DNA of 64,000 nt, from assembly GCF_001425825.1 (NCBI RefSeq), contig NZ_LMDM01000023.1:118213-182212 (forward strand), read 5' to 3'. The first letter of the stretch is position 1, and each line of letters starts with the position of its first letter. The notes under the pieces were generated by a model, which had not been told where the DNA came from, made no database searches, and saw nothing but the letters and a program-made list of their open reading frames with translations. Position numbers and translations under genes: made by a program. Below are positions 19,842 through 35,647 of this stretch, in pieces. This DNA is from Rhizobacter sp. Root1238. GTDB lineage: Bacteria; Pseudomonadota; Gammaproteobacteria; Burkholderiales; Burkholderiaceae_C.

Positions 19842-22800
19842 ATGCGCAGTGCGCGAGCACAGGATCTGCCGCCGTTCCACGTGACGGCGCGCCTGGACGA
19901 ATCCGGATCATGCGACGTCTTCGTGACCGATGGGCGGTCGGTGGGCCGCCATGCCCGATCGCGGCCGGAGCTGCCGGCCTTGCGCCGGCTGTCGCAAGCC
20001 GCCGCTGACGGCGACCTGCACGCGAGCCGCACGTTGTTCGCGCAGCTGTTCCCGGGCGTCGTCGGTGCCACGCTGCGCGGCAGCGAGCCGCGCCGCATCA
20101 ACCTGCAGCTCGATGCCGCCCTGCACGGCCTGCACTGGGAGCTGGCCAGCGACGGCCACGGCCTGCTCGGCGAGCGCTGGCGCGTCGCGCGCCACCTGCT
20201 GGTCGACGACGATCGGCTCGCGGGCGCCGGGGTCGACATCGACCCCGACACCGACCTCGCCGCGACCGTGCGGCGCGTGCCGCGGCGCGGCCCGCTGCGG
20301 GTGCTGCGGCTGGGCGATGCGGCAGGGCCGGCCGGTGCGGCGTCCCCCGCGCTGCCGGCACTCGACAGCCCGACCGTCGTCTCGACCACGCTGGCGCGCG
20401 ACGCCGTGGCCGCCGACGCGGTCCCCGGGCTGCTGGCCGAGCACGACGTGATCTGCCTGGCCGCCGGCGTGCCGCACGAGCTGCTGGCCGGCGTGAGCTG
20501 GCTGCGCCCACCGAAGCTGTTCGTGGTCGGCCCGGCGCCCGAGTCGCAGGTGGCGCGGCTCGCGCAGCGGCTGGCGGCGCTCGGGGCGAGCCTGCTGGTC
20601 GCGCCGTCGGTGGACGCGGAGCGCGGCGACGACGGGCCGGGCTGGTTCGCCACGCTGTGCGAACGGCTGGCGCAGGCCCAGCCGATCGCCGAGGCGGTGC
20701 GCGCGGCGCGCGGCTTGCATGACGAACGCGGCGCCGCATGGCTGCAGCTGTACGGCGATGGCGATGCGGTGCTGGTGCTGCCCGATGCGCGGGCGTCGGC
20801 CGGCAACGATGCGCGCCAGGTCACCTCGCTGTCGTTCGACTTCGTCGATTCCACCGGCTGGCTGCACCGCCTGGGCAGCGAGCGCTACGCCAGCCTGCTG
20901 GCCGAGTTCCACCAGCGTTCCATCGCGCAGATCGAGCGCCACGGCGGCGTCGCCGACGACCCGCAGGGCGACGACGGCGTGATGTCGTACTTCGGCTACC
21001 CGTCTGCCAGCGAGCGCAGCGCCGAGCAGGCGGTGGCGGCGGGCCTGGCGATCGTGCAGTCGGTGGCCGGCATGTCGACGCCGGTGCAGGTGCGTGTCGG
21101 CATCGCGACCGGGCGCGTCTCGGTGATGGCCGGCCAGCCGGTCGGCGTGTCGATCCACCTGGCCGCACGGCTGCAGAGCCGGGCGGCACCCGGCACGGTG
21201 ATGGTGTCGGACATGACGCTCGCGCTGGTGCAGCACCGCTTCACGGTGCAGCCGCTCGAGAGCACGCTGGCGCTGAAGGGCATCGAGGGCGCGCAGCGTG
21301 CCGGCGTGGTGCTGCACGACCGCAAGGAGCACCGGCTTGACGCGCTGCCGCGGCTCACCCCCTTCGTCGGCCGCGACGCCGAGCTGGCGGCGCTGCTGCA
21401 CCACTGGGGCGCGCTGCAGGCCGGCGCGCTGCGCGTGGTGCAGCTGCGCGGCGATGCCGGCATCGGCAAGTCGCGGCTGGTGCGCGAGTTCCGCCACGGG
21501 CTGAAGGCCCGCGGTGCGCTGTCGTTCGAATGCCGCTGCCTGCCCGACCATGCGAGCAGCGCCTTCCATGCGGTGATCGATGCGATGCACCACTGGATGG
21601 GCGTGCGCGACGACGACGACGAGGCCACGCGCCGGCGCAAGCTCGCCGACGCGATGCCGCCGGGCATGGACCCGGCGCAGGCGCTGCCGGTGGTGGCCGC
21701 GCTGCTGTCGCTGCCGGGCGAGCCGCTGGCCGGCACGCCGGAGCGGCTGCGCGAACGCACGCTGGCGACGCTGGTCGAGTGGTTCCAGCGCAGTGCGCAG
21801 GCGCGGCCGCTGTGCCTGGTGGTCGAAGACCTGCACTGGGTCGACCCGTCGACGCGCGAGTTCCTCGGCCGGCTGCTGGCCGGCAGCGGCGAGGTGCCGA
21901 TGCTGGTGCTGCTGACCGAGCGCACCGGTCCCGACGAGACCGCCGCGCCGTGGCAGCCGCCGGTCGTGCACGAGACGCTCGAGCTGCACGGCCTGCGTCC
22001 CGACGAATCGCGCCGGCTGCTGAAGCAGGCCTGCGGCGAGTCGCTGCTGCCGGCGGGCGTGGTGCGGCTGCTCGCCGGCCGCTCCGACGGCGTGCCGCTG
22101 TTCCTCGAGGAATCGGCACGCATGATGGTCGAGCAGAGCGCGACGCTCGACGAGATGCTGCCGCAGTCGCTCGACGTGCCGGGCAGCCTGCAGGACCTGC
22201 TGATGGCGCGCCTCGACCGGCTCGGCCCGGCGCGTGCGATCGCGCAGTTCGGCGCGGTGCTCGGGCGCGAGTTCCCGGTCGCGCTGCTGCAGCAGGTGCT
22301 GGCGCACGGCGGGCGCCCGATGACGCCGCAGGAGCTGACGGCCCAGCTCGATGCGATCGAGCAGTCCGGCCTGCTGGCGAGTGTCGGGGGCACCGACGGC
22401 AGCGGCGAACGGCGCTGCGCCTTCAAGCACGCACTCGTGCGCGACATCGCCTACCAGTCGCTGTGGACGCGCGACCGCCAGCTGGTGCACCGTGCGGTCG
22501 CCGCGGTGCTGCGCGACTCGTGGCCCGAGCTGGCGCAGCGCCAGCCCGAGCTGCTGGCCCACCACCAGACCGAGGCCGGCCTCGCTGCCGAGGCGCTCGG
22601 GCAGTGGGAGGTCGCCGCGCGGCTGGCGGCTTCGCGTTCGGCGCACGACGAAGCGATCCAGCACCTGCAGCGCGCGCTCGCGCTGCTCGACAACCAGCCG
22701 CCGGCGCACGAGCGCCGCGCCATCGAGCTGCGCCTGCAGCTGCTGCTCGCGTCGCGCTACATCGCCACCGAAGGCTACGGCGCGCCGCCGGTCGAGCGCG

Positions 22801-23882
22801 CGTATGCGCGGGCCGAGCAGCTGGGCGACGAGCTCGGCGACGCAGGCGCCCGGCTGAAGGCGCAGCTCGGGCTCGAGGGCTACCACTTCATGCGCGCCGA
22901 TTTCCCGCGGGCCCACGAGATCGCGCGGCGCGCCGAGGCGCTGGCCGAGCAGAGCGGCGACACGATGGCGCGGCTGCAGGTGCGCTGGGCGACCGCCAAC
23001 ATCCTGTTCCACGAGGGCCACGGGCTGGCCGCGGTGCAGCGCATGGACGAATGCCTGGCGGTGTACCGGCCCGAGCACCACCGCCGCGCCGCGGTGCAGG
23101 ACCCGGGCGTGATGTGCCTGTGCTACTCGGCCTGGGGCCAGTGGGAGCTCGGCCATCCGGACGACGCACTGGCGCGCATCGAGCGCGTGCAGCAGCTCGC
23201 GCGCACGCTCGACCACAAGTTCAGCCTCGGCGAGGCCTTCGGCTTCGCGGCCAACGTGCACCGCTACCGCGGCGAGCAGGGGCAGGCGCTGGCCTGTGCC
23301 GAGCAGGCCATTGCGATCTGCGACGAAGGCGGCTTCGCGGTGTGGCTGGCGCATGCGCACGTGATGCGCGGCTGGCTGCAGTGCGAGCGCGGGCTGCACG
23401 ACGAAGGCGTGGCCGAGATGCGCGAGGGCCTGGCGCTGTGGGCGCGCAGCGGCGCCGTCGTCACGCGGCCGCTGTACCTGACGCTGCTGGCCGAGGGCCT
23501 CGCGCGCGGCGGCGACCTGGCGCAGGCCCTGGCGCGGCTCGACGAGGCGATGGGCATCGTGCAGGCGCATGGCGAGCGCTACTACGAGGCCGAGGTGCGC
23601 CGGCTGATCGCCGAGCTGACGCTGCGGCGCGACGGCCTCTTGCTGCCGGCGGCGCGCCGCGCAGCCGAGCAGGGCCTGCAGGCGGCGCATGCGCTCGCGA
23701 TGCAGCAGCACAAGCGCGGCTTCGCGCTGCGCAGCGCCACCAGCCTGGCGCGGCTGTGGCACGAAGACGGCCGCACGCGCGAGGCGCTGCAGCTGCTGAA
23801 GCCGGCCTTTGCGTCGTTCACCGAAGGGCTGGACACGCTCGACCTGCGGCAGGCGCGCGAGCTGCTGCGATCCATGAGTTGA
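19842..23882 (+). CDS. CHAT-like / class III cyclase homology / STAND ATPase / TPR protein
   Basis: The 1346-residue protein is a multidomain sensor. Residues 1-320 resemble a CHAT (caspase-like) region, with ALHGLHWELASDGHGLLGE and HDVICLAAGVPHELL, though I see no clear His-Cys dyad. Residues about 325-490 form a class III nucleotidyl cyclase homology domain: metal Asp in SLSFDFVDSTGW, a second Asp in QGDDGVMSYFGYP, and IHLAARLQ where the usual NxxxR has His for Asn. Residues about 505-800 are an AAA/STAND ATPase with Walker A RGDAGIGKSRLV and Walker B LCLVVEDLHWVD. The remainder is helical TPR-like repeats. The His substitution and the lack of a clear adenine-binding Lys suggest weak or absent cyclase activity. 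It leads a four-gene block with P450, DyP peroxidase and patatin. Confidence 0.85.
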   Translation: MRSARAQDLPPFHVTARLDESGSCDVFVTDGRSVGRHARSRPELPALRRLSQAAADGDLHASRTLFAQLFPGVVGATLRGSEPRRINLQLDAALHGLHWELASDGHGLLGERWRVARHLLVDDDRLAGAGVDIDPDTDLAATVRRVPRRGPLRVLRLGDAAGPAGAASPALPALDSPTVVSTTLARDAVAADAVPGLLAEHDVICLAAGVPHELLAGVSWLRPPKLFVVGPAPESQVARLAQRLAALGASLLVAPSVDAERGDDGPGWFATLCERLAQAQPIAEAVRAARGLHDERGAAWLQLYGDGDAVLVLPDARASAGNDARQVTSLSFDFVDSTGWLHRLGSERYASLLAEFHQRSIAQIERHGGVADDPQGDDGVMSYFGYPSASERSAEQAVAAGLAIVQSVAGMSTPVQVRVGIATGRVSVMAGQPVGVSIHLAARLQSRAAPGTVMVSDMTLALVQHRFTVQPLESTLALKGIEGAQRAGVVLHDRKEHRLDALPRLTPFVGRDAELAALLHHWGALQAGALRVVQLRGDAGIGKSRLVREFRHGLKARGALSFECRCLPDHASSAFHAVIDAMHHWMGVRDDDDEATRRRKLADAMPPGMDPAQALPVVAALLSLPGEPLAGTPERLRERTLATLVEWFQRSAQARPLCLVVEDLHWVDPSTREFLGRLLAGSGEVPMLVLLTERTGPDETAAPWQPPVVHETLELHGLRPDESRRLLKQACGESLLPAGVVRLLAGRSDGVPLFLEESARMMVEQSATLDEMLPQSLDVPGSLQDLLMARLDRLGPARAIAQFGAVLGREFPVALLQQVLAHGGRPMTPQELTAQLDAIEQSGLLASVGGTDGSGERRCAFKHALVRDIAYQSLWTRDRQLVHRAVAAVLRDSWPELAQRQPELLAHHQTEAGLAAEALGQWEVAARLAASRSAHDEAIQHLQRALALLDNQPPAHERRAIELRLQLLLASRYIATEGYGAPPVERAYARAEQLGDELGDAGARLKAQLGLEGYHFMRADFPRAHEIARRAEALAEQSGDTMARLQVRWATANILFHEGHGLAAVQRMDECLAVYRPEHHRRAAVQDPGVMCLCYSAWGQWELGHPDDALARIERVQQLARTLDHKFSLGEAFGFAANVHRYRGEQGQALACAEQAIAICDEGGFAVWLAHAHVMRGWLQCERGLHDEGVAEMREGLALWARSGAVVTRPLYLTLLAEGLARGGDLAQALARLDEAMGIVQAHGERYYEAEVRRLIAELTLRRDGLLLPAARRAAEQGLQAAHALAMQQHKRGFALRSATSLARLWHEDGRTREALQLLKPAFASFTEGLDTLDLRQARELLRSMS

Positions 23883-23912
23883 GCTTTTGACGCGGCGACG
23901 CGGGGAGGCGGT

Positions 23913-25838
23913 ATGACGACCGACAAGAAGTTCCGGCCTGGAGCGGTCGAGAAAGATCTGCCGACCTGGTTCGACGGCACGAAGACCGACTACGTGCGCA
24001 ATCGCATGCTGTTCGACTGGCTGTGCGATTGGCGAGACCTGCGGCCGCACGATCCGCAGAGCCTGCCGGCGCAGCGCGATGCGCTGTTCGAGGCGCTGCG
24101 AAAGCGGCCAGGCTGGCGCGGCATGCTGACCTTCCCGAGCCGTGCCATCCGCCATGTGAACGAGTACGAGCCGGAGAACGGCCTGCCGCGCGACCCGACG
24201 TCCGGGCACAAGGATGTGCACCTGCTGATGGACGCGGAGGACATCCAGGCCGTGCTGCGCAACGAGGAAGAATGCTTTGGCAACGAGGCCTACAACAAGC
24301 TCGGCTCGGGCACTTTCCTGCTGGGGTTGGACGACGAGACGCTGCGCAAGCGACAGCGCACCGCCGCCGCGGAGGCGCTGCACTACACCGATCCGGACAC
24401 GGTTCCAAAGCTGGCTGCGCTGGCGGTCATGGAGGCCGAGCCGATCTCGCTGCGCGCACCGTCCTTCGACCTCGCGGAATTCTCCGAGCAGGCGGCGCTG
24501 CGCTTCTGCAGCCGCCTGTTCGGCTTCGCGACCGGCGACTACCCGTTGCTGGAGAAGGCATTGCGAGGGGCGTACATGGCACTCACGCATCAGATCCTCG
24601 GTCGGCATTTCGTCAGCGATCCCGCGGTGGTGGCTGCTGCGCGCGATCCGATGGCCGGACTGTTCATGCGTGCCTGCGAGCTGATCGACGAATACCAGCG
24701 TGACCCGGATGACGATCCGGAAAAGTTGCCGACCGGCGTGGACCTGCGCAACGACCTGGTGCCCGGGTTCAAACCGGCGATGCGGCGCCTGGCCCGCGAT
24801 GCGGGCGACCTGAGCGGCGAAGAACTCGGCGTCATCGTCGTCGGCGTGATGGCGGGCGTGGTGGGCAACGTGCAGGCAGCGGTGTGCTCGGCGTTGCATG
24901 AGTTCTTTCGCAACGGGCTGGTCGAGCCGCTGAGCAACAAGCTGCGCGACAAGAAGGATCCGCTGGACCTGTGGCCGTGGATCGCAGAGGCGTTGCGCCT
25001 GAACCCGCCGGCTGCCTACCTGCCCAGGCGGGTGAAGCGGGACATCAAGCTGCGCGGCAACCTGGAACTCAAGGCGGGCGACGAATGCGTGCTCGCGATC
25101 GTCGCGGCGCTGCGTGCAGCCCCCGGGGGCTTCGTGGGTGCTTTCGACAAGCACGACAAGAGCAAGATCCTGACGCCGCCGCCGAAGCATGCCCATCCGC
25201 TTGTCTTCGGCCTGGACAGCGGTCCGTCGCGGCACGGCATGCATTCGTGCATCGGCAACCTGCTTGCGCGGCCGCTGATCAGCGCGATCGTGCGCCGCGT
25301 GCTGTTGCTGCGCGGATTGGCCGAGACGCTCGACCCCGAAAACGGCACGGTGGCGGGGCTGGAGCGGCGCTGGGGCTTCACCTGCAAGCGCTATCCGCTG
25401 AGCTGCCGCCTCGACCGCCAACATGCGCTGAACGTGTCGATGCGCGTGAAGACGCCGATCGCCGTGCACGCCGAGGCGTTGAAGGCCGTGATCCGCGCCG
25501 GCGCGCCGCGCATCGAGTGGGCGCTGCGCGAATCGCGGCACATCCATTTCGCGTGGTTCGAGTTCATCGAGAACGACAACCGGCTGGTGCTGCACACGGT
25601 GTACGACGGGCTGTTCGAGTCGTACATCGAGCACTTCGCGCTGGCGGTGGGCGAGTTGTTCGACAAGATCTTCGAACACATCGAGGACGCACCGCCGATG
25701 CCGGTGAGCAAGTACCCCGGCGCCTTCATCGACCTGATCCGGCGCAACGACCGGCCGGTGGCGGCGGGCTACTTCTTCAGCGCTTACCCGTCGGCCGAGA
25801 CGGCGCAGATCCGGCGAGCAATGGAGATCGAGCCATGA
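23913..25838 (+). CDS. Cytochrome P450-like haem protein with C-terminal extension
   Basis: The 641-residue protein is longer than a usual bacterial P450 (about 400-450). The K-helix ExxR is E359-R362 (EALRLNPPAAYLPRR). The haem-binding loop is GMHSCIG with Cys446, inside FGLDSGPSRHGMHSCIG. The I-helix region (about 305-320, GVIVVGVMAGVVGN) lacks the acid-Thr pair used for O2 activation, as in P450s that act on peroxides. Residues about 480-641 form an extra domain (HIHFAWFEFIENDNRLVLHT, then YDGLFESYIEHFALAVGE) of unknown role. It starts 30 bases after the STAND gene and overlaps the DyP gene by ATGA. The substrate is inferred to be a lipid or lipid hydroperoxide from the neighbours. Confidence 0.85.
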   Translation: MTTDKKFRPGAVEKDLPTWFDGTKTDYVRNRMLFDWLCDWRDLRPHDPQSLPAQRDALFEALRKRPGWRGMLTFPSRAIRHVNEYEPENGLPRDPTSGHKDVHLLMDAEDIQAVLRNEEECFGNEAYNKLGSGTFLLGLDDETLRKRQRTAAAEALHYTDPDTVPKLAALAVMEAEPISLRAPSFDLAEFSEQAALRFCSRLFGFATGDYPLLEKALRGAYMALTHQILGRHFVSDPAVVAAARDPMAGLFMRACELIDEYQRDPDDDPEKLPTGVDLRNDLVPGFKPAMRRLARDAGDLSGEELGVIVVGVMAGVVGNVQAAVCSALHEFFRNGLVEPLSNKLRDKKDPLDLWPWIAEALRLNPPAAYLPRRVKRDIKLRGNLELKAGDECVLAIVAALRAAPGGFVGAFDKHDKSKILTPPPKHAHPLVFGLDSGPSRHGMHSCIGNLLARPLISAIVRRVLLLRGLAETLDPENGTVAGLERRWGFTCKRYPLSCRLDRQHALNVSMRVKTPIAVHAEALKAVIRAGAPRIEWALRESRHIHFAWFEFIENDNRLVLHTVYDGLFESYIEHFALAVGELFDKIFEHIEDAPPMPVSKYPGAFIDLIRRNDRPVAAGYFFSAYPSAETAQIRRAMEIEP

Positions 25839-27319
25839 AAAGCCCTTCGCGCAAGCCCGCCACGTCGAGCACGCCGTGGGGCGATCACTTCGACCATGTG
25901 CAGCGCATCGTGCTGTGCGCGCCGAAACAACTGGGAGTGCAGCACTTGCTGCTCAAGTTCAACGGCAAGGGCTCGCTGGCGCGCAAGTTCCTCGGCGCGC
26001 TGAGCAAGGACGTGACTTACACGTCGCGTGCGCGCGATCCCGAGTCGGATCCCCAACTCAGCGTCGGCTTCACCTACCGCGGGTTGGAAGCGCTGGGCCT
26101 GCCTTGCCATGTGCAACTGGTGCTGCAGAAGCTCGCACCGTCGTTCCACCTCGGCGCACCGGTGCAGGCTGCCACGCGGTTGGGCGACACGGGATCGAGT
26201 GCACCGGATCGCTGGGACGGCGACTTTCAGCTTGAAGCGCTGCACGCCGTGGTCAGCCTTCACTACACGGACGATGCGGCGGCTGCCAAGCTGGTGGAGC
26301 GCGTGCGCAGACTGGCCGGCGAGTTACAAGTGCGAGTGGCCGAGAAGCCTTTGCGGGGTGAGAACTTCACGCATGGCAAGACGGACGAGCGCTGGGTGCA
26401 CTTCGGCTATCGCGACGGCCTGTCGAAGGTCGGTATCCGTGGCTGGTCGGATGATCCGAACCGGACGAGGAAGCTGTTGCCGGTCTCGATGCACAACCCC
26501 GGCGAGTTCCTGCTCGGCCACCCGGACGACGGCGGTGCGAACCCCTGGGCATTGGCCGCGCAGCCGCAGGCGGTCAGGTCGTTCTTCTGCGAGGCGAGCT
26601 TTGGCGTACTGCGGCAGATGGAGCAGGACGAGCCGGCGTTCCGCGGCTACCTGGAGGAGCAAGCCAGGCAGATCGTCAAAGGCAGCGGCGGTGCGATCAA
26701 GGAAACCTCGGCGATCGAACTCGTGCGGGCCAAGCTGTGTGGCCGCTTTCGGGACGGTCGGCGCATCCATCCGGAGACGCAGGAACCTGTCGGCGAGCCC
26801 GAAGATGATTTCGGCTACGCGAGCGATCTGGAAGGCAAGGGCTGCCCGTTCGGCTCGCACATCCGGCGGATGAATCCCCGCGGCGGGGAGATTGCGCACC
26901 AGCTGCGGCATCGCCCGTTGATGCGTCGTGGCGCGCCGTACGGGAGAACCTGGGAGGAAGACAAGTCGGCCGATGCCGAGCGCGGCCTGCTCGGCCTGTT
27001 CTTCTGCAGCAGCATCGAGAACCAGTTCGAGCACCTGCTGGGCGAATGGGCCGACCGGGTGCCGATGGGCAACCTCGACGAGGGCAACGCGAAGGATCCA
27101 CTGGCTTCGCACCATGAGGATCCCGATGCGCGCTTCGTGCTGCCCGGTGACGCGGCGCAGCGCGGCGGCGTGACGGAGTTCAAGGGCCTGAAGCCGTTCG
27201 TGCGCACGCGCGGCACGGCCTACCTGCTGTACCCGACGAGCGACGGCCTGGAGCAGCTCGCGACCGAGGACGACGGCCACCTGTGGATCGACGAGGTGGA
27301 CCGGGAAGCCTTTCGATGA
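25835..27319 (+). CDS. DyP-type haem peroxidase
   Basis: The 494-residue protein fits the longer DyP-type peroxidases. The distal Asp194 sits in the GxxDG motif (HFGYRDGLSKVGIRG). The probable proximal haem His342 is in CPFGSHIRRMNPRG, followed by the Arg-rich RPLMRRGAPYGR. No Tat signal peptide is visible, so it is cytoplasmic or held by partners. DyP enzymes use hydrogen peroxide to oxidise dyes, phenolics and other bulky substrates. ATGA overlaps at both ends tie its translation to the P450 and the patatin gene, so it probably works on the same substrate pool. Confidence 0.92.
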   Translation: MKSPSRKPATSSTPWGDHFDHVQRIVLCAPKQLGVQHLLLKFNGKGSLARKFLGALSKDVTYTSRARDPESDPQLSVGFTYRGLEALGLPCHVQLVLQKLAPSFHLGAPVQAATRLGDTGSSAPDRWDGDFQLEALHAVVSLHYTDDAAAAKLVERVRRLAGELQVRVAEKPLRGENFTHGKTDERWVHFGYRDGLSKVGIRGWSDDPNRTRKLLPVSMHNPGEFLLGHPDDGGANPWALAAQPQAVRSFFCEASFGVLRQMEQDEPAFRGYLEEQARQIVKGSGGAIKETSAIELVRAKLCGRFRDGRRIHPETQEPVGEPEDDFGYASDLEGKGCPFGSHIRRMNPRGGEIAHQLRHRPLMRRGAPYGRTWEEDKSADAERGLLGLFFCSSIENQFEHLLGEWADRVPMGNLDEGNAKDPLASHHEDPDARFVLPGDAAQRGGVTEFKGLKPFVRTRGTAYLLYPTSDGLEQLATEDDGHLWIDEVDREAFR

Positions 27320-29322
27320 CGGCGCCGCTGGACACCGGCGAGGATGTCGTCGAGCTGCCCGAGCCGCTGACCGAGCGCCCGCCCGACGACCGCTTCTGCG
27401 ACCTGGTGCTGACCGGCGGCGTTGCGAGCGGTGTCGTCTACCCCTGGGCGATCCTCGAGATCGCGCGGGCGTTCCGGTTCAAGAGCATCGGCGGGACGTC
27501 GGTGGGCGCGATGGCGGCGGCGCTCGCGGCGGCCGCGGAGTACGGGCGGCGCAACGGCCACGACGACGGCTTCGAGGTGCTGCGGCGAGCGCCGGGCGAT
27601 CTGGCGAAGCCGGGGCCGCGCGGGCTGCGCACGACGATGCTGTCGCTGTTCCAGCCGGCACCGCGGGGGCAGCGCTTGTTCGACCTGTTCGTCGGGGCGG
27701 TGGACATCTATGGCGAGGCGCGCCGCAGCCGCGTGCCACGCTGGCTGCGGCTGGGGTGGCCGGTCTTGCGCAGCTACCGCAAGCCGGCGCTGTGGGGCGG
27801 CGCGTTGGGGTTGCTGATCGCGGCCGATTGCGCGCTGATCCCGCCTTTCAGCTGGGGCAGCCTGCTCGGCTTCGCGCTGGCGATCCCGATCTGCGTCGTC
27901 GGTGCGGTGATCTGGTTCGGCCTCAAGCCCGACCTGATCGACGGCCTGGTGAAGAACGACCTCGGCCTGTGCCGCGGCAAGATGCAAGCGGGCCGCGACC
28001 CGAAGACCGACCCCGGTCTCGTCGAATGGCTGGACAAGGGCATCCAGCTCGCCGCCGGCCTCGGCCGCGAGGATGCGCCGCTGACCTTCCGCGACCTGTG
28101 GTCGGCCCCGCTTTCGCCGGGCGCGCCGCGCGTGGCGGTGCGCGATGGCGACGACCGCCGGCTGCGCTCGATCAACCTGGAACTGATCACGACCAACGTG
28201 ACGCACGGCCGGCCCTACCGCTTGCCGCTGCAGGACGAGACCGACCGCGTGTACTTCGAGCCCCGGGCGCTCAGGCTGTTCTTCCCCGACCGCGTGGTCG
28301 ACGCGATGGTGAAGGTGGCGCGGCCCTATGCGCCGTCGAGCGCCTTCGACCCACCGGCTGGTGAGGCAGCGCAGAGCGTGGGCCTGCTGGAGTTGCCGCG
28401 CGGCGACCTGCCGATCGTCGTCGCGGCGCGCCTGAGCCTGAGCTTTCCGCTGCTGTTCTCGGCGGTGCCGCTGTGGGCGGTCGACCACGAGATGCCGCGC
28501 AAGGATCGGGTGCTGAAGCGCTGCTGGTTCTCCGACGGCGGGCTGTGCTCGAACTTCCCGATCCACCTGTTCGATGCGGCCGTGCCGCGCTGGCCGACCT
28601 TCGGGCTGTGGCTGGGCCAGCGCAATCCGTTCCGGCGCAACGTGTTCGTGTGGCTGCCCGAGACGCACCTGCAAGGCAGCCGCGACAGCTGGCAGCGCTT
28701 CGACCCGACCGACCCCGGCACGCCGGTGCAGGCGCGCGAGCGGGCCGACAAGCCGCTGGGTTTCCTGGCGGGCTTCCTGCTGGCCGCCGGCCTGACCGCG
28801 AAGGACTGGCAGGACCGCAGCGCGATGCGCCTGGCGACCGCGCGCAACCGGGTTGCGCGGCTTGCGCTGCGGCCGGGCGAGGGCGAGCTGCACATCGGCA
28901 TGCCGCGCAAGCGCATCCTGCGGATGGCGCGCCGCTATGGCACCGCCAGCGGTCGCTTGTTCGTCGAGCGCTATGCCGATGCCCCCGGCCAGCGCGCGAC
29001 GCGGGCCTGGCGCGAGCAGCGCTGGGTGCGGCTGCAGGCGTTGCTGGTGGGGCTGCGCGGGTGGCTGGCGGGTGCGACGTCGGCGGCGGCGAGCCAGGCG
29101 CACACGCTGCCGATGCGGCAGGCGATCGATGCGGCCGTGGACGTGCAGCCGCTGCGCGGCCAGGACGACGGTGCGCGCACCTTGGACGACGGCGAGGCCG
29201 AGCAGCTGCAGGCCCTGTTGGCCGGCATCGAGCAGCTGGAGGAACGGTTCCGCATCAACGATGCGAGGCAGCCGTACCAGCCGGTGCCGGCACCGGAGTT
29301 GCGGCTGCGCACGCCGGTGTGA
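27316..29322 (+). CDS. Patatin-like phospholipase with membrane segments
   Basis: The 668-residue protein carries the patatin dyad: nucleophile Ser62 in GGTSVGAMAA and Asp407 in WFSDGGLCSNFP. The oxyanion-hole loop is LTGGVASGVVYPW. Between them, at about residues 155-210, lie two hydrophobic helices (ALWGGALGLLIAADCALIPP and LLGFALAIPICVVGAVIW), placing the enzyme at the inner membrane. Patatins release free fatty acids from phospholipids. A long charged C-terminal region (about 480-668) has no family I recognise. It is last in the coupled run P450-DyP-patatin, so it could supply fatty acids to the two haem enzymes (inference). Confidence 0.9.
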   Translation: MTAPLDTGEDVVELPEPLTERPPDDRFCDLVLTGGVASGVVYPWAILEIARAFRFKSIGGTSVGAMAAALAAAAEYGRRNGHDDGFEVLRRAPGDLAKPGPRGLRTTMLSLFQPAPRGQRLFDLFVGAVDIYGEARRSRVPRWLRLGWPVLRSYRKPALWGGALGLLIAADCALIPPFSWGSLLGFALAIPICVVGAVIWFGLKPDLIDGLVKNDLGLCRGKMQAGRDPKTDPGLVEWLDKGIQLAAGLGREDAPLTFRDLWSAPLSPGAPRVAVRDGDDRRLRSINLELITTNVTHGRPYRLPLQDETDRVYFEPRALRLFFPDRVVDAMVKVARPYAPSSAFDPPAGEAAQSVGLLELPRGDLPIVVAARLSLSFPLLFSAVPLWAVDHEMPRKDRVLKRCWFSDGGLCSNFPIHLFDAAVPRWPTFGLWLGQRNPFRRNVFVWLPETHLQGSRDSWQRFDPTDPGTPVQARERADKPLGFLAGFLLAAGLTAKDWQDRSAMRLATARNRVARLALRPGEGELHIGMPRKRILRMARRYGTASGRLFVERYADAPGQRATRAWREQRWVRLQALLVGLRGWLAGATSAAASQAHTLPMRQAIDAAVDVQPLRGQDDGARTLDDGEAEQLQALLAGIEQLEERFRINDARQPYQPVPAPELRLRTPV

Positions 29323-33163: not shown

Positions 33164-35647
33164 ATGCCCTTGCCCTCCGACCCGCCCGCCGCCGTCCCGC
33201 TGCGCCCCCGACTGACCTTGCAGACCCTGACCCGCGGCGACGGCCTGCTCGGCATGCGCGCGATGAACGGCTTCGGCCCGCGCGGCCCGAAGCTGAGCGT
33301 CGCGCGCATCGAGTGGACCTACGAAGCCGCGCCCGGCCTGCACTGGGAAACGCCCGCGCCGACCAGCGTGCTCGGCAAGCGCCCTGCGCCGACCGAGCTG
33401 CTGCGCGGCGCGTGGAACGAGCGCGTGGTGCTCGAACGTGACCTGGCCGCCGAGGCCGATGCGATGGACCTGCTGTGGTCCACCGGCCTGCGGCCCTTGC
33501 CGATGCAGGCGCTGCAATGGCGCAGCGCCGAGGCCGGCGAGGGCCATCCGCAGCTGTGGACGCTGCCCGAAGAAGTGCAGTTCGGCGACTTCTGGCTCGA
33601 CCAGGTGCCGCGCCTGCAGGGCCTCGGCTGGTCGGTGGTGGTGGCGCCGGGCTTCGCGCACATGAGCGCGCCGGTGGAGCGCTGGCGCCTGCTGATCGAC
33701 CCGGTCACCGGGGCCGAGCAGGGGCGCGAGCTGGTCGACGCGCCGTCGCGCCACCAGCAGCCGCTCGCGTCGCTCGGCCAGCCGAAGCGCGAGGGCTCGT
33801 TCATGGTGAGCCTGGGGATCGAGGTCGACGGCGAGCCGGTCGACCTGGCACCGCTGCTGGTCGACCTGTTCAAGCGCCAGCCGCAATGGCTGGATGCGCA
33901 GCACGTGGCCGACATCCCCGACGACAAGATCGTGATGCTGCGCCGGGGCAAGGGCGGGCGCGGCATCGAGACGCCGGCCGGCCCGTTGAAGGCCATCGTC
34001 AGCGCGATGCTGGACCTGCTGACCGATCCGAAGCGGCAGGAAGGCCCGATGAAGCTGTCCAGCTGGGAGGCCCAGCGCATCGAGGCGCTGCGGCTGAGCC
34101 TGATGGACACGCAGGCCGCGCGCGCCGGCGAGCACGGCCGCTGGCAGCTGCAGGGCGATGCCGGCCTGACCGAGCTGACGCAGCGCCTGCGCGCGGCCGG
34201 CACGCCACCACCGGTGGAGTCGCCCGCCGGCCTCGGGCTCGAACTGCGCGCCTACCAGCGGCACGGCGTGGCCTGGCTGCAGTACCTGCGCGAGCAGCAC
34301 CTCGCCGGCATCCTGGCCGACGACATGGGCCTCGGCAAGACGGCCCAGGTGCTGGCCCACCTGCTGGTCGAGCAGCAGGCCGGGCGGCTCGACCTGCCGG
34401 CGCTGGTGGTGCTGCCGACCACGCTGATCGCGAACTGGCAGGCCGAGGCCGCGCGCATCGCGCCGGCGCTGCGCGTGCTGACGCTGCACGGCACCGACCG
34501 CGCGAAGCGCTTCGGCGATGCGGCCGGCCACGACCTGGTGCTGACGACCTACCCGCTGCTGTGGCGCGACATCGGCACGCTCGCGCAACAGCCGTGGCAC
34601 CTGGTGGTGCTCGACGAAGCGCAGATGGTGAAGAACGCCGCCAGCCGCGCGGCCACCGCGCTGCGCCGGCTGCAGTCGCGCCACCGGCTGTGCGTGACCG
34701 GAACGCCGCTGGAAAACCACCTCGGCGAGCTGTGGGCGCATTTCGATTTCCTGATGCCTGGCTTCCTCGGTGACACGCGCTCGTTCCAGAGAATCTGGCG
34801 CAAGCCGATCGAGACGCAGGGCGAGACCTTGCGCGCGCAACTGCTCGCGCAGCGCGTGCGGCCGTTCATCCTGCGCCGCCGCAAGGACGAGGTCGCGACC
34901 GAGCTGCAGCCGTTGACCGAGATCGTCCACCGCGTGCAGCTCGAAGGCCAGCAGCGTGCGCTGTACGAGAGCGTGCGCGTGGCCGCCGACGAGCTGGTGC
35001 GGCGGCTGCTGAAGCGCACCGGCTTCGGCGGCGCGCAGATCAGCATCCTCGATGCGCTGTTGAAGCTGCGGCAGGTGTGCTGCGACCCGTACCTGCTGAA
35101 GGGCACCGCGATGGCGCCGACGATGGAGCGCGCGAAGCTGGAGTGGCTGCGCGCGACGCTGCCCGAGCTGCTGGAGGAGGGGCGGCGCATCCTGGTGTTC
35201 TCGCAGTTCACCGAGATGCTCGGGCTGGTGGCCGACGAGCTGACCGCGCTGAACCTGCCGCACCTGGTGCTGACCGGCGAGACGCCGCCGGCCGAGCGCG
35301 GTGATGTGGTGCGGCGTTTCCAGCAGCGCGAGCTGCCGCTGATGCTGCTGAGCCTGAAGGCCGGCGGCGTCGGGCTGAACCTGACGGCGGCCGACACCGT
35401 GATCCACCTCGACCCGTGGTGGAACCCGGCGGTCGAGCAGCAGGCGACCGCGCGCGCGCACCGCATCGGCCAGGACCAGCCGGTGTTCGTCTACAAGCTG
35501 GTGGTGGAGGGCAGCATCGAGGAGCGCATGCTGGCGCTGCAGCAGCGCAAGGAGGCGCTGGCCGAAGGCGTGCTGGGCGTCGACGGCGAGGCGAGTGTGA
35601 AGTTCAGCGAGGCGGATTTGAAGGCGTTGCTGGCACCGCTGGCGTGA
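33164..35647 (+). CDS. SNF2/Rad54-family helicase (DEAD/DEAH ATPase)
   Basis: The 827-residue protein has an N-terminal family-specific region (to about residue 350) and then the two RecA-like lobes of a Swi2/Snf2 ATPase: Q-loop/motif Ia LRAYQRHGVAWLQYL, Walker A DDMGLGKTAQVLAHL, DEAQ box LVVLDEAQMVKN, motif III VTGTPLENHLGELW, motif V LLSLKAGGVGLNLTAAD, and motif VI ATARAHRIGQDQPV. Such proteins translocate on double-stranded DNA and remodel nucleoprotein complexes; some belong to defence islands. ATG 33164 fits the family start. A frame reaching 32999 crosses the LRR upstream region and is rejected. Confidence 0.92.
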   Translation: MPLPSDPPAAVPLRPRLTLQTLTRGDGLLGMRAMNGFGPRGPKLSVARIEWTYEAAPGLHWETPAPTSVLGKRPAPTELLRGAWNERVVLERDLAAEADAMDLLWSTGLRPLPMQALQWRSAEAGEGHPQLWTLPEEVQFGDFWLDQVPRLQGLGWSVVVAPGFAHMSAPVERWRLLIDPVTGAEQGRELVDAPSRHQQPLASLGQPKREGSFMVSLGIEVDGEPVDLAPLLVDLFKRQPQWLDAQHVADIPDDKIVMLRRGKGGRGIETPAGPLKAIVSAMLDLLTDPKRQEGPMKLSSWEAQRIEALRLSLMDTQAARAGEHGRWQLQGDAGLTELTQRLRAAGTPPPVESPAGLGLELRAYQRHGVAWLQYLREQHLAGILADDMGLGKTAQVLAHLLVEQQAGRLDLPALVVLPTTLIANWQAEAARIAPALRVLTLHGTDRAKRFGDAAGHDLVLTTYPLLWRDIGTLAQQPWHLVVLDEAQMVKNAASRAATALRRLQSRHRLCVTGTPLENHLGELWAHFDFLMPGFLGDTRSFQRIWRKPIETQGETLRAQLLAQRVRPFILRRRKDEVATELQPLTEIVHRVQLEGQQRALYESVRVAADELVRRLLKRTGFGGAQISILDALLKLRQVCCDPYLLKGTAMAPTMERAKLEWLRATLPELLEEGRRILVFSQFTEMLGLVADELTALNLPHLVLTGETPPAERGDVVRRFQQRELPLMLLSLKAGGVGLNLTAADTVIHLDPWWNPAVEQQATARAHRIGQDQPVFVYKLVVEGSIEERMLALQQRKEALAEGVLGVDGEASVKFSEADLKALLAPLA

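Follow-up and report, generated by a model that had tools for sequence, protein, structure and literature searches.

Our analysis brings to light a compact block of four genes in Rhizobacter sp. Root1238 whose members are kept together across genomes and which may act as one functional unit, a regulated system for the oxidation of lipids. The block was studied within a window of 64,000 nucleotides (the whole stretch of DNA that was analyzed, from contig NZ_LMDM01000023.1 of assembly GCF_001425825.1) and, by open reading frame calls, comprises the following genes:

19842-23882, + strand, gene of a STAND-type regulator, 1346 amino acids
23913-25838, + strand, gene of a P450-like heme-thiolate protein with a C-terminal domain (here called P450C), 641 amino acids
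25835-27319, + strand, gene of a DyP-type peroxidase, 494 amino acids
27316-29322, + strand, gene of a membrane patatin-like acyl hydrolase, 668 amino acids

The STAND gene is spaced 30 bases from the P450 gene, and the P450/DyP and DyP/patatin junctions are two ATGA overlaps; these coordinates, together with the profile matches given below, bear out the arrangement, the gap and the joins described in an earlier sequence-only reading of this DNA. No ferredoxin or reductase gene lies within the four-gene block, the rest of the genome not having been searched for one. The co-occurrence data establish that the four genes stand together more than by chance. The reading of the block as a functional unit, which we favor tentatively and would put somewhat below an even chance, is based on the genes being kept together, on fusions among the enzymes, and on the intact residues of the patatin and the DyP peroxidase along with the heme-ligand cysteine of the P450.

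The linkage of the four genes extends well beyond this strain. Any patatin match is found in 11 of 100 related genomes (its own included), and the complete block with its gene order kept is present in six of the 100 (its own, G005, G008, G015, G022 and G029), while G002 carries a rearranged version. An alignment scan of 84,980 species genomes for the patatin yielded 537 confirmed relatives, of which the best 80 were kept; all locus counts refer to those 80, around which family profiles were used to score the genes near the patatin (some of the stretches being short, and the P450s of fused form being scored in separate comparisons). A DyP gene lies beside the patatin at 24 of the 80 loci: 19 full blocks with the order STAND, P450, DyP, patatin on the same strand, three in which the contig stops upstream of the DyP gene, and two of the fused type. 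The full blocks include L061 and L106, whose outer gene is cut by a contig end, and the frameshifted L067; five further loci (L016-L020) coincide with L030, L029, L037, L039 and L046 and were counted once. At L067, in Ramlibacter terrae, no part of the block is missing, but it is split into several reading frames, by decay or by sequencing errors, and its pieces were only scored and were kept out of the protein alignments. Neither a P450 nor a DyP was found in the sequence stretch around the other 56 patatins, some of these stretches being short. No partner gene shared by these patatin-alone loci was recognized by eye, and the list of their recurring open reading frames is mostly one of near-identical Pseudomonas neighborhoods. 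At one of them (L085) a STAND/cyclase gene stands about 2.4 kb off on the opposite strand. A patatin tree with 77 rows has a branch, with an SH-aLRT support of 97, that splits all 24 patatins with DyP from the 53 patatin-alone sequences, none of which has it (Fisher p 2e-20); the 24 block rows are 18 full blocks including the window, three cut blocks and three of the fused type, with L067, L057, L106, L096 and L098 left out. Across 16 loci the pairwise identities of the four proteins, with medians of 37-42%, correlate with r of 0.90-0.94, and none of 2000 permutations gave values as high. The sequence-only reading had suggested looking for the four genes together elsewhere, and the outcome, on the full blocks and the split of the tree, is clearly positive; their homologues are not scattered without co-conservation, as that reading had allowed they might be.

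The enzymes are also joined physically in other genomes. P450C, DyP and P450 form a single protein of about 1,190 amino acids in G002 (L022), Variovorax soli (L062) and Bradyrhizobium lablabi (L064), and a further fusion of this form occurs at L156. In a profile comparison by hhalign, the C-terminal part of the first three matches the block P450s with a probability of 95.8% (E 7.7e-9) and with the I-helix asparagine aligned, whereas a MAFFT alignment places the I-helix stretch of the fusions differently. In Scleromatobacter (L043) the DyP and the patatin share one open frame, an arrangement seen once. Through these P450-DyP and DyP-patatin fusions, every enzyme of the block is therefore joined to another somewhere.

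The chemistry that we propose depends largely on the P450. The 641-residue protein matches the Pfam p450 model at E 1e-5 (24.9 bits against a cut-off of 22.8) and shows a cytochrome P450 fold with the heme-ligand cysteine. Three features of this protein are relevant here:

24852-24875, + strand, I-helix motif A314-G-V-V-G-N319-V-Q321, without an acid-alcohol pair and with Asn319 invariant
25230-25256, + strand, heme-ligand loop H444-S-C446-I-G448, whose H, C and G are shared by all 19 block P450s
25419-25835, + strand, P450C, a C-terminal domain of approximately 130 residues without a Pfam, NCBIfam or solved relative

By alignment, the equivalent of Asn319 is present in all 19 block P450s. The acid-alcohol pair is present in none of them, with the acid lacking throughout and a Thr at the 318 position in one (L046), and the canonical monooxygenase I-helix pair, (A/G)Gx(D/E)T, is thus not a feature of this group; the ExxR motif, found in seven of the 19 (the window and six others), is not conserved group-wide. 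A heme-free relative of P450s is ruled out by the cysteine, which all 19 possess. Passages of PMC13049297 describe a distal axial Asn in PGIS, plant AOS and fungal LDS/EAS; in prostacyclin synthase (PGIS, CYP8A1) it is Asn287, in the motif WATQGN287, whose G-N pair is matched by G318-N319 of the block P450 and whose Asn is likewise on the distal side (PMC13049297, same passages). The axial-type Asn and the block without a partner gene agree with a self-sufficient P450 of the hydroperoxide/endoperoxide type, and CYP74 enzymes, as a portion of PMC10813956 states, work without O2 and without redox partners. The likeness to CYP8A1 and CYP74 is one of motif, not of demonstrated kinship: in a sequence profile search of the PDB the best 60 of 325 matches were P450s other than CYP8A1/CYP74, and among the 50 VIA matches listed the closest solved folds were bacterial P450s, with no CYP74 or CYP8A1 chain.

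The other two enzymes retain the residues expected of their families. Solved DyPs match the 494-residue protein (best 8re3, E 3e-28), which also matches the DyP_N model (E 5e-5, 24.1 bits, below the 27.5 cut-off) and the Dyp superfamily model TIGR01413 (E 9e-13, 48.2 bits, below the 100.5 cut-off). Its D194, H342 and R364 are present in all 43 aligned DyPs of this kind, and with the distal Asp in GxxDG, the proximal His and the distal Arg it belongs in the DyP superfamily, a group of peroxidases whose natural substrates are debated. The 668-residue protein matches the Patatin model (PF01734) with 49.7 bits (E 7e-13), and its Ser62 (in GxSxG) and Asp407 (in DGG) are invariant in the nine patatins aligned, which identifies it as a patatin-like lipase; hydropathy places a hydrophobic stretch at residues 157-208.

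The first gene encodes a protein with the architecture of a regulator, in which the following regions can be distinguished:

residues 1-318, remote CHAT-like N-terminus
residues 320-490 (20799-21311, + strand), class III cyclase-homology domain with metal Asp D333 and D378 and with His439 at the catalytic-Asn site
residues 507-689, AAA_16 P-loop ATPase
residues about 935-1346, TPR region

The AAA_16 match is clear (77.5 bits, E 2e-21, with the Walker A motif GDAGIGKS), the Guanylate_cyc match just exceeds its cut-off (E 1e-4, 22.3 against 21.9 bits) and the TPR_12 match lies below it (E 8e-4, 20.1 against 30.1 bits); an ATPase of the AAA_16/NACHT type with Walker A, combined with a repeat domain, marks this 1346-residue protein as a STAND regulator. 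In the cyclase-homology domain D333, D378 and R443 are invariant in the 14 aligned STAND proteins, and His stands in place of the catalytic Asn in 17 of 18 block cyclase domains, with Val in the remaining one. The two metal Asp and the catalytic Asn-Arg of an active class III nucleotidyl cyclase are thus not all present, the Asn being replaced, and we regard the domain as a probable regulatory module that is either non-catalytic or altered. The N-terminus, which the sequence-only reading called CHAT-like, can keep that name only in the sense of remote kinship: the CHAT model matches two of 14 family members (best E 5e-6), the N-terminal profile finds 8tl0 weakly among solved sequences (E 0.15), Pfam gives no match to the N-terminus of the window protein, and no conserved His-Cys dyad was seen in the alignment of the N-termini. 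In the structural comparison, the VIA matches listed for this protein are taken up by its cyclase domain and give no indication on the CHAT part. The protein shares its cyclase-ATPase-TPR part with the TOMM system kinase/cyclase fusion (TIGR03903), from which it differs in a score below the cut-off (448.6 bits over residues 348-1302, against 705.75) and in that a kinase domain was not found in the Pfam scan.

In the mechanism that we propose for the block, a signal of some kind would switch the STAND/TPR protein, and the membrane patatin would free acyl chains, as its family and catalytic residues suggest. The P450C domain would tether the DyP to the P450, and the two heme enzymes would form or rearrange lipid O-O bonds by hydroperoxide isomerase or peroxygenase chemistry. 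We infer such O-O chemistry, operating without a redox partner, from the P450 motifs, the fusions and a block that holds no partner gene. The resulting oxylipin-like products would serve as signals or act as toxic lipids.

The P450C domain ties the block to a wider family. It has no convincing match in Pfam or NCBIfam, nor among solved sequences (best E 0.15), and a duplicated DyP domain is ruled out by a profile comparison (probability 0.1%). A P450C profile matches in 25 of 398 Pseudomonadota genomes sampled, which were viewed through 20 fetched stretches (19 genomes), four short loci, the window and L024; in all 25, P450C is fused to a DyP, adjoins one or lies one gene away (the last at L157, L159 and L160). 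Eleven of the 20 stretches contain a recognized P450, and L150 has one by its kinship to L149. Giant P450-P450C-DyP proteins of 1408-1527 amino acids occur at L149, L150, L152, L153, L154 and L162, with plasmid-borne relatives in Pararhizobium qamdonense and Novosphingobium aromaticivorans. Directly upstream of the giant fusion stands a cyclase-domain protein at L149, L150, L152, L153 and in Pararhizobium (those of L149 and L152, the two tested, carry TPR by Pfam), a TPR protein at L154 and L162 (the latter with a HilA/EilA-model match, E 1e-10), and an annotated SARP regulator in Novosphingobium. Giant proteins of this kind, preceded immediately by a gene of the cyclase-domain or SARP-like/TPR type, were noted at L164 and L165 too, and a Crp-type regulator lies near the giant fusion in five cases (L149, L150, L152, L153 and L164). 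None of 17 wider or fused P450s has an acid adjoining Thr at the I-helix site; PT occupies this site in 11 of the 13 whose order differs from P450C-DyP-P450, and the four with that order have D/E before G-N, the match to the acid position being unclear. In the proposed wider P450C-DyP family, many members would include a P450, and the regulators would often be of the cyclase-TPR, STAND-TPR or SARP-like TPR type. We take P450C-DyP, to which a P450 and a TPR regulator are often added, as the probable core, and the patatin as an apparent addition that defines the present group. P450 proteins with two P450C domains were seen at L045, L058 and L061. At L147 (5697-10832) and L148 (7115-12293) the P450C-DyP pair lies one small gene from a GMC-type oxidoreductase (by Pfam at L147 and by eye at L148) and also adjoins a protein of approximately 400 amino acids, which makes for a different partner set. 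In a cyanobacterium, on a plasmid of Gloeothece verrucosa (L166, 6908-8950), a P450C protein and a DyP-type peroxidase stand beside TOMM peptide-modification genes.

Comparison between close relatives adds a further feature, since divergence is far greater in the enzyme core than in the sensor. The STAND genes of the window and of G005 share 97% of their DNA letters, with a synonymous divergence (dS) of 0.09, while dS reaches 0.52 in the P450 heme domain and 0.52 in the DyP (which lie within 24012-27319), 0.26 in P450C and 0.33 in the patatin, and the flanks show 0.13 for the SNF2 gene and 0.31 for a MocR-type gene. Against G008 the values are 0.46 for the P450 heme domain and 0.19 for the DyP. 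It seems that parts of the enzyme core have been exchanged while the sensor stayed. Such a mosaic would fit product diversification or conflict, and it would make it less likely that the sensor acts as receptor for a product specific to the strain.

Several points weigh against the lipid-oxidation reading. According to passages of PMC13049297, the axial Asn is dispensable in fungal LDS and is missing from thromboxane synthase and some AOS, so the I-helix Asn can only be suggestive. The correlated identities of the four proteins may partly be species history, and the replaced cyclase Asn would weaken one simple signaling route. DyPs are, to our knowledge, not known as dioxygenases, so the proposal has a weak point in the origin of the initial O-O bond, or of H2O2. 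Patatin is absent from many P450C-DyP loci, and no P450 was recognized in eight of the 20 P450C stretches; the lipid link is therefore not general to the P450C-DyP module, which may act on a non-lipid. The main rival, which we hold to be rather unlikely, is membrane repair, in which the patatin would excise peroxidized acyl chains, the DyP and the P450 would destroy the hydroperoxides and the STAND protein would sense oxidative stress. It calls on the same parts, with a P450 active site that suits O-O cleavage, a DyP that keeps its peroxidase Asp, His and Arg, and Crp-type regulators close by in some loci, but a STAND protein of 1300 residues and a P450 are, in our judgement, unusual for housekeeping, and the distribution of the block, in six of the 100 related genomes, is patchy.

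Non-lipid metabolism and defense come after repair. In the former, which is quite unlikely in our estimation, the heme pair would oxidize a non-lipid small molecule or peptide on which the patatin would act as an esterase or acyltransferase; the P450C-DyP pairs without patatin near the GMC oxidoreductase, and the pair by the TOMM genes of Gloeothece, lend themselves to this view, yet the repeated unit consists of the four genes only, with neighbors that vary by locus, and the patatin has a hydrophobic stretch and is fused to the DyP in one genome. STAND proteins and patatins are frequent in defense systems, CapV being the patatin effector of CBASS, and an anti-phage or conflict system could be envisaged in which an invader, sensed by the STAND protein, would lead it to turn on a membrane-damaging patatin while the heme enzymes would make a lethal reactive lipid. 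We consider this improbable and place it last. The parts, the patchy distribution and the greater divergence of the enzyme core than of the sensor are in its favor. On the other side, PADLOC returned nothing for the four block proteins other than a weak PycC match (E 0.0045), no DyP relative was found in 50,697 phage records, and no P450 relative was confirmed in viral contigs, where 68 stretches fit the pattern. PADLOC matched 74 models on 43 neighbor proteins (six window genes and 37 of 116 predicted ones, many of them likely antisense artefacts); the 25 of the 74 that were listed are all broad types (SNF2 helicase, kinase-like, TIR/cNMP-binding effectors), stand beside housekeeping families and were not taken as support for a defense island. 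The block resembles CBASS in its patatin effector and differs from it in that a CD-NTase is not among the four proteins; it resembles Pycsar in its class III cyclase homology and the weak PycC match, and differs in the replaced cyclase Asn.

Several known systems come close to the proposed lipid-oxidation system. Fungal LDS, EAS, AOS and Ppo, as passages of PMC13049297 describe them, unite a self-sufficient P450 with a heme enzyme of the peroxidase type in a single polypeptide, and the same passages give the I-helix Asn for LDS/EAS and an HxC heme loop for the fungal synthases, both as in the block P450s. The likeness to these oxylipin synthases, which had been drawn in the sequence-only reading, is strengthened by the P450-DyP fusions and the I-helix Asn and fails in that the partner is a DyP and not a COX-like dioxygenase; the block further differs in being bacterial and in the addition of P450C, the patatin and the STAND protein. 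The working logic of the block is proposed to be that of the fungal dioxygenase-P450 pairs and of the animal pair of COX and prostacyclin synthase, a DyP standing in for the peroxidase of COX type. Among bacteria, the oleate-diol synthase PA2077/PA2078 of Pseudomonas aeruginosa likewise yields signals through fatty-acid oxygenation by heme enzymes; according to portions of PMC6377657 and PMC4496055, these are relatives of di-heme cytochrome c peroxidase with CXXCH, unlike the P450 and the DyP of the block. In open-access PMC, the scope of the search (subscription journals and bioRxiv lying outside it), no description of a DyP-P450 operon, a DyP-P450 fusion or the four-gene block was found among the leading results; the parts are known, and there appears to be no earlier account of the system, of the fusion of P450 and DyP or of the P450C domain. 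A more specific proposal, which we find doubtful though worth stating, is that the block is a bacterial counterpart of the eicosanoid/oxylipin cascades, with a sensor-gated lipase feeding a P450C-wired DyP-P450 pair, within a large undescribed Pseudomonadota family and with strain-specific products arising by segment exchange. If true, this would be a third, independent assembly of the logic of COX/prostacyclin synthase and of the fungal oxylipin synthases, and it would give DyP peroxidases a concrete genetic context. Few cases of lipid-hormone-like chemistry in bacteria are known, and P450C offers a handle for finding more such systems.

Downstream of the block lies one further feature of note:

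33164-35647, SNF2 helicase

DpdE models of PADLOC match one scanned neighbor protein (E 1e-182), which we take to be this gene. SNF2 relatives are present in all 11 Rhizobacter-group genomes, and the gene is therefore no mark of a defense island. No clean insertion site was shown in a comparison of seven genomes without the block at SNF2 (G004 left out), in which the other flanks are not beside SNF2, except for one weak match of 28% identity. Carriage by phages or prophages is rejected, given the lack of P450 relatives in viral contigs and of DyP relatives in phage records. Plasmid records gave one weak match for the block P450 and 22 for the patatin, and 128 matched the wider fusion, nine of them over at least 80%. 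Viewed by eye over 20 stretches, the neighbors of the four-gene unit differ between loci. A Crp-type regulator is present at six of 23 block loci and at one of 56 patatin-alone loci when the two loci that seeded the model are left out (eight block loci with the seed loci counted; the match of L041 lies 3.6 kb off and that of L033 is weak at 63.7 bits). Similar sensor-like proteins of approximately 229 amino acids, judged by eye from their first residues, stand by the block at three Crp-type loci (L037, 2211-2900; L043, 383-1069; L022, 18880-19500).

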